Shown here: in pieces, positions 4,418 through 46,435 of the stretch
Layout of the letters: every line of letters starts with the position of its first letter
Numbering within the stretch: position 1 is the stretch's first letter
DNA from: Gammaproteobacteria bacterium
GTDB lineage: Bacteria; Pseudomonadota; Gammaproteobacteria; GRL18
Assembly (NCBI GenBank): GCA_015231865.1
Contig: JADGAU010000007.1
Coordinates: 1-46,459 of the forward strand
Reading direction: 5' to 3'
Length of the DNA: 46,459 nt
Program-made: the position numbers and the translations under genes
Notes under the pieces: model-generated
What the model saw: the letters and a program-made list of their open reading frames with translations, nothing else
The model's database searches: none
Told to the model about the DNA's origin: nothing

Positions 4418-5386
4418 CTAAAACACGGACTCTTTATAAGCAGCACCAGGCGTTTCTCTAACTAACTTAGGTACTAAATATCCAGGCAGTCTTGTTTTAA
4501 GTTGTTGAATTAGCATAATTGCATGCTGATCAGATACTTCAAAATGTCCGGTGCCAATCACTTTATCTAGTTGATGCAAATAATAGGGTAATACACCATA
4601 TTGAAGTAATCGCTCACTTAAGTCAGACAGAGATTCTACTGAATCATTTATGCCTTTAAGTAATACACTTTGATTTAATAGTTGGATATTGTTAAATTTT
4701 AGCTGCTGTAATTTTTGTTGCACTTCACTATCTAATTCATTTGCATGATTACAGTGAAAAACAATCGTAAGAGGTTTTGTCAGACTTTTAAATATTGAAA
4801 TTAATTCATCATCAATACGTTTTGGTTCAACGATAAGTTGTCGAGTGTGAATCCTTAAATATTGAAGTTGAGACAATTTGTTTAGTCGAGTTAAGATTTT
4901 CCCGAGGTTTTTATTACTCAATAGCAGCGGATCTCCACCGCTTAAAATGACTTCTTTTATATCTGATTTTTTTTGTATCTGAATGATTTGATTTTCAATA
5001 TTTTGTTTATTAATGGCCTGTTCATGATAGGGGAAGTGGCGTCGAAAACAATACCTGCAATGGATGCCGCAGGCAGAAGTAGGCATTAATAATAAGCGAG
5101 CCTGATATTTTTGAATGAGTCCATTATCATCAATATAGTCACGCTCCTTTAAGGGATCAAATTCATATCGACTTGCCTGTTCTAGCTCTGCTATTCGTGG
5201 CAGAATTTGTAATAATAAGGGATCATAGGGGTTTCCTTTCTCCATTTTAGCAATAAAAGAGTAGGGAACTCTTAAGGAAAAATCTTGATGTATTTTATCT
5301 GAATAATTGACTTGTGCCTTATTTAAAGAAAGTAATTCCAATAATTCATTGATGTCAGTACAAATTGTTTTCTTAGAAGTAAGCAA
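4418..5386 (-). CDS. epmB: EF-P beta-lysylation protein EpmB (lysine 2,3-aminomutase-like radical SAM)
   Basis: Radical SAM motif CGIHCRYCFRRHFPY, KEVILSGGDPLLL, C-terminal YLVPKLVRETPGA; divergent from efp-epmA. Confidence 0.92.
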   Translation of the reverse strand: MLTSKKTICTDINELLELLSLNKAQVNYSDKIHQDFSLRVPYSFIAKMEKGNPYDPLLLQILPRIAELEQASRYEFDPLKERDYIDDNGLIQKYQARLLLMPTSACGIHCRYCFRRHFPYHEQAINKQNIENQIIQIQKKSDIKEVILSGGDPLLLSNKNLGKILTRLNKLSQLQYLRIHTRQLIVEPKRIDDELISIFKSLTKPLTIVFHCNHANELDSEVQQKLQQLKFNNIQLLNQSVLLKGINDSVESLSDLSERLLQYGVLPYYLHQLDKVIGTGHFEVSDQHAIMLIQQLKTRLPGYLVPKLVRETPGAAYKESVF

Positions 5387-5478
5387 TAGAGCATGTTCTG
5401 TCTGATTAGAAAATGTTATTATAGCAACACTTTATTTATAACAGATACTCATAGGTAGATATCTGAGGCTCAAAATAT

Positions 5479-5571
5479 GCACGAAATAGCTTCCCCCTTT
5501 ATCAAATCTTCCCTAACTTCTCTTTTCTACTCTCAAGGGGTACTAAGTAAAGAGGGGGACTATATGGTGCA
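5479..5571. repeat. Small inverted-repeat (MITE-like) element between epmB and efp
   Basis: Imperfect terminal inverted repeats: TGCACGAAATAGCTTCCCCCTTTA versus reverse complement of the other end TGCACCATATAGTCCCCCTCTTTA. Confidence 0.5.
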
Positions 5572-5620
5572 AAGCTTAAGTACTTACTAATGAACAGATA
5601 ATAGAAATTTAGAGGAAACT

Positions 5621-6190
5621 ATGGCTTCTTATAGTACAAACGAATTTAAAAGCGGTTTAAAAATTATGATTGATAATGATCCTTGTGCCATTATTGAAAA
5701 TGAATTTGTTAAACCGGGAAAAGGTCAGGCTTTTAACCGGGTCAAAATTAGAAACTTAAAAACAGGCCGTGTGGTTGAAAGAACCTTTAAATCGGGTGAG
5801 TCGGTGGAAGCTGCCGATGTTATTGATACAACTTTACAATACCTCTATTCAGATGGTGAATTCTGGTATTTTATGAATACCGATAGTTTTGAGCAAATTG
5901 GTGCTGACAAATCTGCTGTTGCAGATTCAGAGATTTGGTTAAAAGAGCAGGATATGTGCGAGATTACTTTGTGGAATGGCGACCCAATTGCGGTTACTGT
6001 GCCCAATTTTGTTAACTTAACCGTAAGTGATACGGATCCGGGCGTTCGTGGTGATACCTCCGGCGGCGGTAGCAAACCAGCTACCATGGAAACAGGTGCG
6101 GTTGTTCAGGTTCCTTTATTTATTAATATTGGCGATATTCTAAAAGTAGATACGAGAACAGGTAAATATGTTGCTCGTGCCAAAGATTAA
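5621..6190 (+). CDS. efp: Elongation factor P
   Basis: [46 protein letters not shown]; Lys34 falls in the PGKGQA loop. Confidence 0.97.
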
Positions 6191-15188: not shown

Positions 15189-15755
15189 TTATTGTCGAAT
15201 AATCTCGCCAGTCAATAGATCGATAATTTGTGAAGGTTTTGAGTTCTCGTTTACTTCACCATCAATGATATAATCTAAAAGATTATTAAATTGTTTATGT
15301 ATTTCCTTAACATTACCACAGGTAGCTTGCCCTGATATATTGGCGCTAGTTGAAGTTATCGGTTGTTGCAAAGCATTACAAATTGATTGAATAATAGGGT
15401 GGCTAGAAGTTCGGATGGCTATTTTCTTGTCATCAGATAAATGCTTGCCGCAAAGTAATTCTGATAAGTGAGGTAATGCGGGAACTATCCAGGTTGTAGC
15501 TTGTGTTGCAGATTGAATTGTTCGCTGTTGTTGAGACGATAATGGCTGGATAAAATCTTTAAATTGCGCAAGCTCATGGGCAATAATTATTAATCCTTTG
15601 TTGCCGGGGCGCTGCTTAAGCGATAATAATTTTTCAATGGCAGAATCTTGTTTTGGATCACAGCCTAACCCATAAACTGTTTCTGTTGGATAAGCGATAA
15701 CACCACCGTTTAAGATGATATGACATGCCTCTTTAATGATATTTTTATAATTCAA
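15189..15755 (-). CDS. tsaC: L-threonylcarbamoyladenylate synthase (Sua5/YciO/YrdC family)
   Basis: GGVIAYPTETVYGLGCDP, KQRPGNKGLIIIAHEL, PITSTSANISGQ. Confidence 0.92.
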   Translation of the reverse strand: MNYKNIIKEACHIILNGGVIAYPTETVYGLGCDPKQDSAIEKLLSLKQRPGNKGLIIIAHELAQFKDFIQPLSSQQQRTIQSATQATTWIVPALPHLSELLCGKHLSDDKKIAIRTSSHPIIQSICNALQQPITSTSANISGQATCGNVKEIHKQFNNLLDYIIDGEVNENSKPSQIIDLLTGEIIRQ

Positions 15756-15760
15756 CCAGT

Positions 15761-16237
15761 TTAGTGTTGCATATGGCTTTGGTCAAAGACAATATTTTCA
15801 ATCCAGGAAAATGCACCTTCTGAACCGGAAATATTAAATAGAACCATTAAGCTAGTCCATTGTATTTGTTCTAGATTAATTTGTTCAGTTTCCAGGGCTA
15901 AAGCACGTTCAATAACAATTTCCCGTAAACTAAAATCTAATATGCCCATGTCTTCCATATAGTATAAAAACCCACGAGCTTCTGTCGATAATTGTTCCTG
16001 CTCAAAAGAATCATAAATTCTGTTTGGAAAGTTATTGCCTTCTGCAAACTGGAATTGATAGGACTTTAATTTAGATAAATCTTCCAGCCATTCAAATGCC
16101 TTACCAATATTTTTTTGTCCAAAGCCGGCTAAAGACAATTCATTTTCAACAGAACTGCCAAGTGGAATTTGTTCAGAGTCTTCGTCCATATAGCTTTCAA
16201 ATAAATATTTTAATACATCAATGACATTTTCTTTCAT
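15761..16237 (-). CDS. smg: Smg family protein (DUF494)
   Basis: MKENVIDVLKYLFESYMD...LSLAGFGQKNIGKAFEWLEDL; adjacent to dprA and tsaC. Confidence 0.85.
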   Translation of the reverse strand: MKENVIDVLKYLFESYMDEDSEQIPLGSSVENELSLAGFGQKNIGKAFEWLEDLSKLKSYQFQFAEGNNFPNRIYDSFEQEQLSTEARGFLYYMEDMGILDFSLREIVIERALALETEQINLEQIQWTSLMVLFNISGSEGAFSWIENIVFDQSHMQH

Positions 16238-16342
16238 CTCGATCCTTTTGTGTCTTAATCATGTTAGGTTGATTTTATAAAGATTATGGGGGTGGAGTCA
16301 ATCAAGCATCTGAAAGATCAACAATCTAGTTTTAAGACTTAT

Positions 16343-17533
16343 TTATAAACTAATACGGCCATCGGGGTAAAGTTTTATCTTTCCTTCAAGTTCTAGTATT
16401 GACAATTGGGCATTGACCTGATTAATTTCAAGTTGGCATCGTTCGCATAATTCATCAATACTAATGGGTTCATAATCAATAAATTCAAAAATTGCTAATT
16501 GATTGTCAGAGCAAGGCAGATTTTCGTTCGACAATGAGTTTGGCTCAGGTTTAACAGCATCGGAATTTTCTTTTGTTTCATTCCTTTGATGTAAATTAAG
16601 GCTGGCAGCTGAAATCAGTAGAGGAGAAATTTCTTCGATAATATCCTGTGCGTTTTCAACCAGTTTGGCGCCCTGTTTAATTAATTGATGACAGCCTCGT
16701 GCTAAAGGATTATGTATTGAACCGGGAATGGCAAACACTTCTCTTCCTTGTTCTAATGCAGATTTAGCTGTAATCAGTGAGCCACTTTTAAGGGCTGCTT
16801 CAACAACTAGAGTCCCGACAGATAAGCCACTAATTAATTGATTTCTACGTGGAAAATTACTTTTATTCGGTCCTGTTCCAAGCGCAAATTCAGATATTAA
16901 TAAACCGCAATCTGCAATCTGATAAGCCAGTTCTTTATGTTTGGCCGGATAAATTCTATCAAGCCCGGTACCGGTGACTGCAATTGTTGGCTGATGATTA
17001 TCAATACACGCCTGGTGACACGCGGCATCAATTCCTAAGGCCATGCCACTGGTAATTACCATCCCGGCACAACTTAAGTAGGCAGCAAAGTCATAAGCTG
17101 TTTGTTCACCGGATTTTGTTGGGTTACGACTACCAACAATCGCAAATTGAATCGTCTTTAATAAATCTATGTTACCTTTGGCATATAAAACTGGCGGCGG
17201 CGCATAAATAGTTTTAAGCAAATTAGGATAATCTGGATCATCATAAACAATAATATGATTTTCAGCGCTTTCCTGCCATTGTATTGTGGCATCAAAATGA
17301 TCCCAGTTAACATTTTTAAGATCTGATTCAATATCTTGTAGCTGTTCTAAGTTTGCATTTTTAATATCATTAAAGTCACTTTTAGAATTTTTACAAAGTT
17401 CAATAATGAGGTTTTTATCTGTGAATAAACTGGCTATCGTTAATTGTCGATAAGCAAGTTCTTCAACAATAAAACGATAAAATGAATAGCCAACTTTAGG
17501 CGTACTTGCCAGTGCTAAATGGTATTTTAGCAT
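16343..17533 (-). CDS. dprA: DNA processing protein DprA/Smf
   Basis: FAIVGSRNPTKSGEQTAYDFA, SGMALGIDAACHQACI, GTGLDRIYPAKHKEL, FPRRNQLISGLS. Confidence 0.93.
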   Translation of the reverse strand: MLKYHLALASTPKVGYSFYRFIVEELAYRQLTIASLFTDKNLIIELCKNSKSDFNDIKNANLEQLQDIESDLKNVNWDHFDATIQWQESAENHIIVYDDPDYPNLLKTIYAPPPVLYAKGNIDLLKTIQFAIVGSRNPTKSGEQTAYDFAAYLSCAGMVITSGMALGIDAACHQACIDNHQPTIAVTGTGLDRIYPAKHKELAYQIADCGLLISEFALGTGPNKSNFPRRNQLISGLSVGTLVVEAALKSGSLITAKSALEQGREVFAIPGSIHNPLARGCHQLIKQGAKLVENAQDIIEEISPLLISAASLNLHQRNETKENSDAVKPEPNSLSNENLPCSDNQLAIFEFIDYEPISIDELCERCQLEINQVNAQLSILELEGKIKLYPDGRISL

Positions 17534-36900: not shown

Positions 36901-37082
36901 CTTAGCCCTTAGTCCTTAGTCCTTAGTTATAATTTATCGACTATCGACTATCGACTATCGACTATCGACTATCGACTATCGACTATCGACTATCGACTAT
37001 CGACTTTCCACTTTCCACTTTCCACTTTCCACTTTCCACTTTCCACTTTCCACTTTCCACTTTCCACTTTCCACTTTCCACT
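36901..37082. repeat. Composite heptanucleotide tandem array (4x CTTAGYY, 1 spacer heptamer, 10x ATCGACT, 11x TTCCACT), one 7-bp register
   Basis: Direct reading: units at 36901-36928, ATAATTT 36929-36935, ATCGACT 36936-37005, TTCCACT 37006-37082. Confidence 0.97.
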
Positions 37083-40456: not shown

Positions 40457-42112
<1,656 letters not shown>

Positions 42113-42190
42113 CGGTTAAAACATACCGGACATACCGACCACCTCTAAAGAAACTCTATTTTTTATATGTTTTTTTAGAAAATTGAAAAA

Positions 42191-42263
42191 GGCAACATAA
42201 TATTGGTAATAAAGTTGATTCAAAACAGCTGAAATTACCTCTAAAGTTGCCTTTTTTGTTGCC
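42191..42263. repeat. Nested dyad, first att arm region (GGCAAC/GTTGCC type)
   Basis: GGCAAC 42191-42196, GGTAAT 42205-42210, ATTACC 42234-42239, GTTGCC 42246-42251 and 42258-42263. Confidence 0.75.
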
Positions 42264-42297
42264 TCTGAAAAAATATCGCTGAGTTGATTTTATTACT

Positions 42298-44682
42298 TCA
42301 TAATTTCAGTTTGGCCTGGAACATTTGTTGCTCACCTGTATAGGTCAGTGTATAACCTAAAGCATCATATCCTTTTACTCTTTTATTGAACATTCTTTGA
42401 AGCATGGGTAGTGATTGATCGACATAATCATAAACAATGACTCTTTCTTTCCCTGCATGTTGCCTGTGAATTCGCCCAACATATTGTGCCAATGAGCCTT
42501 TCCAGGAAATAGGTAGTGCGAGAAATAAAGTATCGAGCTTTGCCAGGTCAAAACCTTCTCCAATATATTTTCCGGTTGCGATAAGAACTTGAGTGCTGTT
42601 TATAGATTCTTTTGCTTCTTTTAATTCCTGACTTTTCATTCCACCTCTTAAAACCAGATTACTGATATTATTATCGGTGATTAATTGACTGATAATTAAA
42701 GCGTGTTCTCGCCTTTCAGTTAATATTAATGGCTGACGGTTGTTTTTCACTTCAGAGATGACATCTTCCACAATTTCCTTATTTCGTAATTCATTTTCCA
42801 TTAACCATGTATAAACATGAGATATATTAGGTGAGCGTTCTAGATTAACTAAATTTTCTGGTGGATTGTGATATAAATCTGAAACAATGACTTGTTGCTC
42901 AAAACTTGATTTTAAATCTGACTCAACAACATATCGAACGGGTCCAGCATTCATAAAGATTATCGGTTGATGACCATCCTGACGTTGAATTGTTGCGGTT
43001 ATGCCAAGGACATACTTCGCATGAATTTCATTTAAAATCATTTCATAATTGGGTGCAGAGATATGATGACATTCATCAATGATGATTTGTCCGTATTTGA
43101 AAACAAGAGGATTGACAGTATTGTCCTTACGATTAAATAGACCTTGATAGGTTGCAACATCTATTTGACCGCTGAGTTTCTGCTTACCACCTTTAATTAT
43201 TCCAATATTTACTTCTGCCAGAAAAGATAATAGCCTTTCTTGCCATTGTTCAACCAATTGCCGGGTGTGAACCAAAATTAATGTATTAACTTTTCTTTTG
43301 GCAATGACACCAATGGCTGTTATGGTTTTGCCAAATGCAGTAGGAGCATGAAGAACGCCTGTATTATATTGTGTAAGCTGAGTAACCGCTTTATTCTGCT
43401 CCTCTCGAAGCTCCCCCTGAAATTTTATTTTCCGTAGTTTCTTGCCGGTTTTTCTCTTATCATCATATTTTATTGATACAGATTGTTCTTTCAATAAGTT
43501 TTTTACATCATCCAGGCAACCTCTTGGTAAGATTAAATACTCTTGATCAAAATAAGCCAGACAAATAAATCGAGGTATTCCATTAGTGGAGAACCGTAAG
43601 GATTGTTTTTTGAAAAATACAGGATTAGAAAAACTCGCTATTCTTTTTAATTTTGCTATCAGTCTATCGGGTAATTCATCAATAGGAATATAGATTTTAT
43701 TAGCTAGTACAATCGTAATATTTTCTGGACAATTTTCTATCTTATTTTTATCAATGGGTAAGGTAATTTCCCAAGGTTTTAATTGAGGTTCATCAGTTTT
43801 GTCACTGTGCTGTTGTGCTAAACATTTATATACTTTTGATATTGAAAGCTTTTCAATGGTAGATAAAAAGAACCATTGGTCAAGATATGGATTGAAATTG
43901 TAATCTACAAATTCACTATTCCCTTTTTTCCTGGATTCTTTTTGAAGTGGTAATGCAATAAGGTTTCCAAAACCACCATCAGGCATAATATCTTGATTAG
44001 GGAAAAGTCTATCGTAAGAGTCAAAAGAGACTTTAGAATTATGCTCCATAGCATTATCCAAAAGTAAGAAGCCTAAGTTTCTGGCATCTGATGCTGGAAT
44101 AGCACTTTCAAAAAAGATCCAGACATGTGCTCCATTCCCAGAACGGGAACGCTCAACAGCATATGGAATATCCATTTCAGAGCAAGCTTTAGAAAATGCT
44201 GTTACATCTTCTTGCCACTGGGATTTATCAAAATCAGCTGCTAAAAAGTAACAGGTATTATCTGTTAAAAGGGGATAGATGCCAACGGTTATATTGCCAG
44301 ATAAATGCTCATATAAAACTTGTTTGTTAAGTGGTGAAAATATACGGTTTTGGCATTCACCACATTTGACTTTTGGTTTAAAGCAAATCCCTTGCTTCCA
44401 CTCATTTAAACAAGCGACAGAATATCCACTTTTGTTAAATTTATTTTCCCAGCGTAGTGCATGAATGTCATTACGCCCTTTAAATAAGTCAGAAAAGATT
44501 TGAAGCTTTTGTTCAATAGAAAATGTTTTTGAAGTGTTTAGTATGTGTGTTTCAGTATTATGGTGAGCTAGTTGCTTTTGTAGTTCTTTTTTCTGCTCTT
44601 CAAGTTTAAGCCTTTCTTCATTGATTTTATGCAAACGTTTATCAATCAGTTTAATTTCTAAATTGATATCATTTGTTTTCAT
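42298..44682 (-). CDS. AEP-primase-like / SF2 DEAH-type helicase fusion (TOTE-type AEP helicase)
   Basis: N-terminal coiled coil; primase-like CYFLAADFDKSQW (DxD) and SGNGAHVWIFF (sxH); Zn-like CFKPKVKCGECQ; helicase APTAFGKT, IIDECHH, LGITAT, GKYIGEGFD, QYVGRIHRQHAGK. Confidence 0.85.
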   Translation of the reverse strand: MKTNDINLEIKLIDKRLHKINEERLKLEEQKKELQKQLAHHNTETHILNTSKTFSIEQKLQIFSDLFKGRNDIHALRWENKFNKSGYSVACLNEWKQGICFKPKVKCGECQNRIFSPLNKQVLYEHLSGNITVGIYPLLTDNTCYFLAADFDKSQWQEDVTAFSKACSEMDIPYAVERSRSGNGAHVWIFFESAIPASDARNLGFLLLDNAMEHNSKVSFDSYDRLFPNQDIMPDGGFGNLIALPLQKESRKKGNSEFVDYNFNPYLDQWFFLSTIEKLSISKVYKCLAQQHSDKTDEPQLKPWEITLPIDKNKIENCPENITIVLANKIYIPIDELPDRLIAKLKRIASFSNPVFFKKQSLRFSTNGIPRFICLAYFDQEYLILPRGCLDDVKNLLKEQSVSIKYDDKRKTGKKLRKIKFQGELREEQNKAVTQLTQYNTGVLHAPTAFGKTITAIGVIAKRKVNTLILVHTRQLVEQWQERLLSFLAEVNIGIIKGGKQKLSGQIDVATYQGLFNRKDNTVNPLVFKYGQIIIDECHHISAPNYEMILNEIHAKYVLGITATIQRQDGHQPIIFMNAGPVRYVVESDLKSSFEQQVIVSDLYHNPPENLVNLERSPNISHVYTWLMENELRNKEIVEDVISEVKNNRQPLILTERREHALIISQLITDNNISNLVLRGGMKSQELKEAKESINSTQVLIATGKYIGEGFDLAKLDTLFLALPISWKGSLAQYVGRIHRQHAGKERVIVYDYVDQSLPMLQRMFNKRVKGYDALGYTLTYTGEQQMFQAKLKL

Positions 44683-44866
44683 TTATTATCAAATCCACAT
44701 TATTTGAATTCAGAAGTAAATCAATTATTATTTGGAATAGAAATTTTATATTTCGTTCTTCCACTTATCCTGTGTTAGCACATTTTACGACTAGCAATAA
44801 AATTAATAAAGCCAAATAAAGAAAAGCTAGATTGTTATCCTATTCTAGATATGGCGTATTTAATAA

Positions 44867-44907
44867 TTTAATCACGCCAATATAGTTTGATTAATGGCGT
44901 GATTAAA
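44867..44907. promoter_or_regulatory. 13-bp perfect inverted repeat upstream of fic, likely operator
   Basis: TTTAATCACGCCA (44867-44879) / TGGCGTGATTAAA (44895-44907), 15-nt spacer; related half-site TGGCGTATTTAA at 44852. Confidence 0.7.
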
Positions 44908-44922
44908 GATTATAATCAAGTC

Positions 44923-46032
44923 ATGAAATGGATATGGCAAAACACTGACTGGCCCGACTTTACATACGATGAGAACCTGTTCTCAGATCGTGTGACGGAA
45001 TTTAGGCTAACTTCTGAAAGACTTTGTGGTCGTATTGAAGCTTTGTCCGGTAGTAATCAAAACGAAGCTATCATAGACTTAATGCTATCAGAAGCCATAA
45101 AAACCAGTGCCATTGAAGGTGAAATTCTTGACCGAGATTCTGTACGCTCTTCACTCTTATCTTTAATCAATTCAGATACTTTAGCACCAACAAAAGATCT
45201 AAAAGGAGCTGGTGCTGCTTCATTATTGGTAGATGTTAGAAAAAAATGGTCGCAACCACTTAGCCATGATTTATTAGGTCAATGGCAGGCCATGGCTGTA
45301 CCGGAACATAGAACATCACTTATCTTGCGTGGAGATTATCGAACTGATCCAGCTCCTATGCAGATTGTGAGTGGTTTTTATGGCAGACATAAAGTACATT
45401 ATGAAGCACCTCCAGCAGCTCAGATTATGGATGAAATGAATGCTTTTATTGACTGGTATAATAAAACTACGCCACGAGATGAAAGAACAGAATTGTCCGG
45501 AGTAATACGTGCCGGAATTGCTCATGTCTGGTTTGAGACAATCCATCCTTTTGATGATGGTAATGGCCGTGTTGGCAGAGCAATTGCCGATCATGCACTT
45601 TCACAATCTCTGGGTTATCCGACATTAGCTTGCCTTGCAACTGCGATAGAAAGTAAGAAAAAACAATACTATCAGGAACTAGAACAGGTCGGTCGAGGAA
45701 AATTAAATCTAAATAAATGGTTAGAATATTTTACCTATGCCGTCATACATGCACAGTCTATTGCAAAGGAAGAAGTTGATTTTGTACTGAATAAAACCAG
45801 GTTTTATGATAGGTTTGCTGAACAATTAAATGAACGCCAGGCTAAAGTTGTTGAGCGAATATTTACTGAAGGGCGAAAAGGTTTTGAAGGTGGGCTATCG
45901 ACTAAAAATTATATGACGATAGCTAAATGTCCGAATCGTACCGCCAGTCGTGATTTATCGGATATGTTGGACAAAGGTATTATTTCTAAATATGGAGCAG
46001 GTCGTTCTACTCGATATGAATTGCATCTTTAA
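44923..46032 (+). CDS. Fic family protein (DUF4172-like N-terminus, Fic domain, C-terminal winged-helix-like region)
   Basis: HPFDDGNGRVGRA active-site motif; N-terminal TSAIEG matches the (S/T)xxxE(G/N) inhibitory motif; ATG 44923 (MKWIWQNTDWPDF) preferred over TTG 44887. Confidence 0.92.
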   Translation: MKWIWQNTDWPDFTYDENLFSDRVTEFRLTSERLCGRIEALSGSNQNEAIIDLMLSEAIKTSAIEGEILDRDSVRSSLLSLINSDTLAPTKDLKGAGAASLLVDVRKKWSQPLSHDLLGQWQAMAVPEHRTSLILRGDYRTDPAPMQIVSGFYGRHKVHYEAPPAAQIMDEMNAFIDWYNKTTPRDERTELSGVIRAGIAHVWFETIHPFDDGNGRVGRAIADHALSQSLGYPTLACLATAIESKKKQYYQELEQVGRGKLNLNKWLEYFTYAVIHAQSIAKEEVDFVLNKTRFYDRFAEQLNERQAKVVERIFTEGRKGFEGGLSTKNYMTIAKCPNRTASRDLSDMLDKGIISKYGAGRSTRYELHL

Positions 46033-46081
46033 CTTCAGTTTTAAGTTGGAAACCCCAAAGGGCACCAAGGTAATTTTATCA

Positions 46082-46102
46082 TGGGGTATATTTTGGGGTA
46101 TA
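46082..46102. repeat. Direct repeat TGGGGTATA-ttt-TGGGGTATA near the right end of the groEL element
   Basis: Exact 9-bp repeats at 46082-46090 and 46094-46102, about 50 bp left of the second att core. Confidence 0.75.
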
Positions 46103-46150
46103 AGTGAATCAAGTTAAAATAAAACATAATAAAAACAATTGCATATGTTC

Positions 46151-46169
46151 GTATGGGCGGTATGATGTA
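46151..46169. repeat. Direct repeat copy 2: putative att core (duplicated groEL 3' end)
   Basis: GTATGGGCGGTATGATGTA, followed by A so that it restores an in-frame MGGMM-stop. Confidence 0.85.
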
Positions 46170-46233
46170 ACTATTAACCCATAACAATCATTCCCTTTAT
46201 AATCAATAGGTTATAAAGACGAAAATTGAAAAA

Positions 46234-46435
46234 GGTAACATATTGGTAACAACATCGGTTCAAAATCGGTGAAAATACCTCTAAATGTTACCTTTTTTGT
46301 TACCTTTTATAAGGGTAACCGAGAGTCGTTTAAATTATTGATTCTATTGTATTTATAAGTGTTTTTCTGAACCGTTTTTTCATCAAAAAACAGCCAAAAT
46401 GTTACCTTTTTCAAAAAGTAACAGAAAAGGTAACC
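46234..46435. repeat. Second att arm region (GGTAAC/GTTACC type), with additional copies to the window edge
   Basis: GGTAAC at 46234, 46245, 46314, 46429; GTTACC at 46287, 46299, 46401; near-palindrome TGTTACCTTTTTcaAAAAGTAACA about 46400-46422. Confidence 0.75.

Follow-up and report, generated by a model that had tools for sequence, protein, structure and literature searches.

Our analysis of a 46,459 bp stretch of DNA from a gammaproteobacterium, hereafter the window, indicates that the 794 aa protein encoded near its right end, a fusion of an archaeo-eukaryotic primase (AEP) and a superfamily 2 (SF2) helicase, is a genuine and probably active DNA primase-helicase of a known and widely mobile family. 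The window is an entire contig (JADGAU010000007.1, here G000:C277) of a genome of 3.54 Mb in 299 contigs. The gene lies divergent to a gene for a Fic family protein, and the original prediction had proposed the two as a candidate conflict system. The reading that we favor, tentatively and at somewhat less than even confidence, is that the primase-helicase is a stand-alone, conflict-type cargo gene on a small cassette at the 3′ end of groEL, accompanied by an independent, self-inhibited class II Fic protein.

The predicted fusion itself, including its primase-like and helicase motifs, was fully borne out: the open reading frame (ORF) is exact, and both halves are recognized by Pfam. The AEP half matches the AEP-TOTE family PF22548 over residues 58–286 (E 4.2e-100; 334 bits vs. 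a cut-off of 27) and contains the motifs DFD (150–152) and GAHVW (184–188). The helicase domain is placed C-terminally to the AEP domain, with matches to ResIII (2.8e-26, residues 424–567), DEAD (2.9e-12), and Helicase_C (3.1e-7) that extend to residue 740, and with the motifs APTAFGKT (Walker A, 446–453), DECHH (536–540), and GRIHR (736–740). In a profile built from 37 homologues, the first half matches 7nqd, the structure of a CRISPR-associated Prim-Pol (E 1.6e-24), and the second half matches XPBII, 7clg (which we take to be SauUSI), RadD, and UvsW (structures 6p4f, 2oca, 6jde, and 7clg). An AlphaFold model computed from 5 sequences was mediocre (pLDDT 65, pTM 0.49) and allowed no assignment of the linker domain (residues 290–420); its AEP half superposes on the Prim-Pol of Marinitoga MpCAPP (7nqf) with a target-normalized TM of 0.75 (Foldseek). 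Throughout the alignment of the 37 sequences, the AEP residues D150, D152, H186, and D224 are invariant, as are the helicase residues G451-K452-T453, D536-E537, H539, A563-T564, G736-R737, and R740, and the C4 zinc-binding cluster of the AEP domain (C91/C100/C107/C110) is nearly so. Since both active sites are invariant across the homologues, the protein is under selection as a two-activity enzyme.

The architecture has already been described, and the window contains an ordinary example of it. Helicase-fused AEPs were defined as the third type of CAPP_A, “CAPP-Helicase” (Zabrady et al., 2021; PMC8211822), which is reported to be the most common non-CRISPR architecture and typical of mobile or transposable elements (PMC8211822). 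The window protein shares this architecture, its AEP half is homologous to MpCAPP (7nqd/7nqf), and both catalytic sites are intact by sequence. No CRISPR-like repeat array is present in the window, and the two-gene unit contains no cas genes; the remainder of the genome was not searched for them. By every sequence feature tested, the protein fits CAPP-Helicase as a non-CRISPR member. Relatives of the AEP half have GTP-stimulated primer synthesis and DNA polymerase activity (PMC8211822), but these activities were shown for MpCAPP and DbCAPP (PMC8211822), which are of other types than the helicase-fused protein analyzed here; we infer the primase and helicase activities of the 794 aa protein itself from its family.

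The link to TOTE conflict systems that the original prediction drew holds in part. These systems are named for TPR, OB, TBP, and Effector (PMC12458937). The window protein has the AEP-TOTE domain, and its E. coli homologues are annotated by NCBI as “TOTE conflict system archaeo-eukaryotic primase domain-containing protein,” but the defining partners were not seen: no TPR, OB, or TBP partner lies in the 42.1–46.2 kb interval, and none is among the families listed (25 in each of two scans) for the neighbors of 70 homologues. Because these partners were not found, we do not file the system as TOTE; it may function like one. The helicase core resembles the SF2 helicases XPB, UvsW, RadD, and SauUSI by sequence profile, whereas those proteins have no AEP domain, and both SauUSI and XPB-Bax1 act together with a nuclease. 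As originally predicted, no nuclease gene is found inside the repeat-bounded interval described below (42093–46169; ORF list and Pfam).

The fusion is widely but sporadically distributed on mobile DNA, without an obligate partner. With the source genome included in both samples, it was found in 33 of 387 genomes/species of the class (~8%) and in 17 of 399 genomes of the phylum. Among plasmids, 91 records contain it at E ≤ 1e-100, 87 of which cover at least 80% of the protein, and in 683 of the 5,426 complete E. coli genomes the match spans 80% or more of the E. coli homologue. None of the 50,697 phage records carries the fusion over 80% of its length. The loci on plasmids and in genomes lack a constant partner; their neighbors include HipBA, HigBA, RIT-like recombinase trios with DUF736, TniB/TniQ, Tn3, AbiEii, RNA ligase, RhuM, and YhcG. 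The family is thus common, and it is named after conflict systems; no published functional test of it was found in the literature searched, and with the E. coli homologues a direct test in a laboratory strain would be simple.

The Fic assignment and the divergent arrangement of the two genes were also confirmed. The protein consists of DUF4172, a Fic domain, and a winged-helix-like C-terminus (Pfam), and the ATG at 44923 is the likelier start compared with the TTG at 44887. Numbered from this ATG, the active site motif HPFDDGNGR is at position 208 and TSAIEG, an N-terminal (S/T)xxxE(G/N) inhibitory motif, at position 61. The protein therefore has the sequence features of class II, HxFx(D/E)GNGR plus an inhibitory motif, and adenylyltransferase activity is predicted. 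Under the published class rules, we take it to be a class II protein that is self-inhibited and needs no separate antitoxin. The same two motifs and a PADLOC match to SoFic (2e-41) connect it to SoFic and other class II Fic adenylyltransferases; it differs from SoFic in scoring 55 bits vs. the NCBI SoFic equivalog cut-off of 550 bits and in its DUF4172 N-terminus.

It is probable that Fic is separate cargo and not a subunit of the primase-helicase. The neighbors of about 70 primase-helicase loci were scanned, and all 145 Fic domains of 45 other helicase-bearing genomes were located, with each distance taken to the Fic domain itself. In 4 of the 45 genomes (G016, G149, G163, G416), compared with about 0.55 expected (p = 0.002), the helicase has a Fic domain no more than 5 kb away; in no genome does one lie as close as 1 kb. 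The orientation varies: in L087 Fic converges on the helicase from the 3′ side, and in L073 the two genes share a strand. On plasmid L120, a Fic gene is about 3 kb from the helicase. The closest homologues from the same family (L065 and L069, 61–66% identity) have toxin-antitoxin (TA) genes upstream and a 2-oxoglutarate (2OG)-oxygenase-like gene downstream, and a different Fic, at a distance of 3.9 kb in G016, is the only one seen near these homologues. The source genome contains a degenerate second copy of the primase-helicase, a truncated C-terminal part amid small TA genes (74% identity; G000:C105, L095), as well as an internally deleted second copy of the window Fic that adjoins an unrelated Fic (G000:C292, L096); these separate contigs are too short to tell whether the two genes once adjoined. 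Helicase and Fic therefore cluster weakly and do not form a conserved pair, and the specific, recurrent pairing that had been proposed was rejected on these two surveys. Recurrent linkage, the absence of which the original prediction named as evidence against it, is nearly lacking, with no adjacent pairs, but not entirely, given the 4 genomes vs. 0.55 expected.

The 2OG-Fe(II) oxygenase-domain protein of L065 (5455–7815, minus strand) and L069 (2838–5201, minus strand) has 786–787 aa, and its gene follows that of the primase-helicase after about 75 bp. It is possible that this gene is an operon partner of the primase-helicase in the family of the host.

The compact mobile setting that had been predicted was confirmed and could be defined more sharply, as the two genes are bounded by perfect 19 bp repeats of the groEL end. 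The repeat GTATGGGCGGTATGATGTA has two perfect copies and no others in the 3.54 Mb genome at up to 2 mismatches, and the reversed control gave none; with just two genomic copies, a dispersed repeat was ruled out. The distance from repeat to repeat is 4,058 bp, and the unit contains the primase-helicase and Fic genes alone. Each repeat is followed by a hairpin or arm-like block, and the two blocks align over 88 columns with 82% identity (local score 94, where 500 shuffles gave at most 31). Compared by eye, the GGGGTAT repeats close to the right 19 bp repeat resemble arm-like repeats after groEL in L137 and L165. In at least 7 other genomes of the host's family, groEL is followed by tsaC-smg-dprA. 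In other relatives, foreign DNA starts right after the groEL stop codon, and tyrosine recombinases are present; for example, L165 (G003) encodes the N-terminus of an Arm-DNA-bind_3 integrase about 400 bp past groEL, and L161 (G006) has a Phage_integrase gene. The foreign DNA and integrase genes behind groEL in these relatives indicate that in this family integration takes place at the 3′ end of groEL, apparently in relatives as well. The 4,058 bp unit is thus probably a cassette integrated at the groEL attachment site, or one of two tandem elements.

Table 1. Coordinates of the features of the primase-helicase/Fic unit in the window.
Feature	Position	Strand	Details	Evidence
AEP primase/SF2 helicase fusion	42298..44682	−	794 aa, uninterrupted ORF, ATG start
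AEP (Prim-Pol) domain	43825..44511	−	residues 58–286	Pfam PF22548; alignment of homologues
SF2 helicase core	42463..43413	−	residues 424–740	Pfam; alignment; profile search
Fic family protein, DUF4172-Fic-wHTH (winged helix-turn-helix)	44923..46032	+	369 aa from ATG 44923; 381 aa from listed TTG 44887
Divergent intergenic region, primase-helicase/Fic	44683..44922	.	240 bp upstream region shared by both genes	sequence
Left 19 bp repeat GTATGGGCGGTATGATGTA	42093..42111	+	probable attL core, last codons of groEL	genome-wide repeat search
Right 19 bp repeat GTATGGGCGGTATGATGTA	46151..46169	+	probable attR core; alternatively, left end of another element in tandem	genome-wide repeat search
Left hairpin/arm-like block AAAAAGGCAAC...GTTGCCTTTTTT	42178..42264	+	behind groEL; groEL terminator, integrase arm region, or both	local alignment
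Right hairpin/arm-like block AAAAAGGTAAC...GTTACCTTTTTT	46221..46305	+		local alignment with left block
Two direct GGGGTAT repeats, 12 bp apart	46083..46101	+	by the right repeat; possible integrase arm sites	sequence

In the source genome, tsaC-smg-dprA is located at 15189–17533 of the window on the opposite strand, about 25 kb from groEL. The use of tsaC as a marker for the far end of the island failed; since tsaC lies at 15.2 kb of the same contig, the gene order differs in the source genome.

The neighborhood of the homologues revealed a clustering of toxins of several unrelated families directly upstream of the helicase. Of some 66 loci at which the 5′ flank was usable, 16 encode a toxin in the first 1 kb (0.24 per kb), compared with 6 toxins in 216 kb (0.03 per kb; 0.05 if 10 are allowed) at 3–5 kb from the same helicase genes. 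The density is 5- to 9-fold higher near the gene, with p from 1e-6 to 4e-5 when kinship is ignored (5-fold and p = 4e-5 with 10 far toxins). A stricter test per small ORF gave 10 of 62 near vs. at least 4 of 100 far (p = 0.01, or p = 0.13 if 4 more far toxins went unlisted). These tests replaced an earlier one (17 of 119 vs. 2 of 110 ORFs, p = 5e-4), which was biased by the omission of single-member families from the listing. The upstream genes comprise HigBA (L031, L072, L092), PIN/UPF0175 (L007, L065), ParDE/RelBE (L069, L070, L088, L108), AbiE (L081–L084), and HipBA (L078, L120); they usually share the strand of the helicase, in many cases with a short gap between the genes. The toxin types are scattered over the helicase tree, and therefore the partners change. 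Abi_2, type III restriction-modification, and Schlafen-like genes are also found among the neighbors.

How might such a protein act? In the reading that we favor, the SF2 motor would load on branched, stalled, or incoming DNA and expose single strands, on which the fused Prim-Pol would then lay down short primers, as the MpCAPP domain does in vitro. Such priming could divert or restart DNA synthesis, and the outcome would be a conflict with other replicons, either as interference with plasmids or phages or as protection of the carrier element. Because TA, restriction, and abortive-infection genes adjoin the family and phage genomes lack full-length copies, we consider a role in conflict somewhat likelier than one in the routine replication of the element, and a defense role is plausible. 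Several observations weigh against this reading. Thirteen IMG/VR contigs, which are classed as viral, encode a relative, in most cases nearly full length. The element is incompletely seen, because no integrase gene lies inside the 4,058 bp unit and the contig ends at 46459, 290 bp past the right repeat. Furthermore, E. coli islands carry the primase-helicase in a block after AlpA, YfjI, and an inovirus-type Gp2, which suggests a replication module of a mobile element, and replication would by analogy be the usual role of a bacterial AEP, as these proteins are almost always replication genes of mobile elements (PMC5862659). The alternative that the protein is a replication or repair module that copies or restarts the DNA of its own carrier, with TA, Fic, and restriction genes as ordinary cargo, also gains from other loci adjoining TniB/TniQ, RIT-like recombinase trios, or Tn3. 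However, the Pfam scan of the protein revealed no PriCT, origin-binding helix-turn-helix, or hexameric helicase, some carrier plasmids have their own replicons, and the context of the carriers is extremely variable, with no full-length copy in the phage records. We regard this alternative as unlikely, though as the strongest of those considered.

A more doubtful explanation is that the primase-helicase forms functional units with interchangeable upstream TA modules (HigBA, ParDE/RelBE, HipBA, AbiE, PIN), with the toxin being freed when the helicase is inhibited or triggered and Fic being one partner. The upstream enrichment, the short gaps, and the scatter of toxin types on the tree agree with such units, but about three quarters of the loci have no toxin in the upstream 1 kb, the small-ORF test is weaker, TA modules are common on mobile DNA, and the Fic in the window is divergent and self-inhibited. 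That the family is wired by position to swappable TA modules as a modular, guard-type defense, with Fic as one variant, seems slightly more doubtful still. A dedicated conflict system of just the two genes is very improbable. The divergent pair does share a 240 bp region inside one repeat-bounded unit, Fic genes are enriched within 5 kb, and degenerate second copies of both genes exist in the source genome, on separate contigs; yet no adjacent pair occurs elsewhere in the sample, the orientations vary, and the putative operons of the closest homologues contain no Fic gene. The corrected hypothesis would seek a link to upstream TA modules and integrative elements, and not a dedicated Fic partner.

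Several further arrangements were seen next to the helicase gene. A DUF6155-like gene (sub-threshold Pfam match; 183–191 aa, 45–77% identical) is directly upstream of it in L102, L103, L104, L117, and L119; in L117 and L119 the two genes overlap by 8 bp at the helicase start, and in L102 and L103 the DUF6155-like gene itself follows a Zeta-toxin-like gene. On the alphaproteobacterial plasmids L034, L035, L062, L063, L124, and L125, the helicase repeatedly has two or three RIT-like tyrosine recombinase genes in a row beside it, in many cases accompanied by DUF736. In L086, the gene directly upstream of the primase-helicase (5020–5817) encodes an RNA ligase (PF09414, 1.4e-31). A CoiA-N-like protein is encoded divergently to the primase-helicase, about 155 bp away, in L005 (6908–7846, minus strand), from a Vibrio genome, and in L101 (6938–7906, minus strand); the two proteins are 64% identical. 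Elsewhere in the window, between two flagellar genes (36907–37081), there are successive arrays of 7 bp repeats, namely CCTTAGT, then TATCGAC, and then TTTCCAC.
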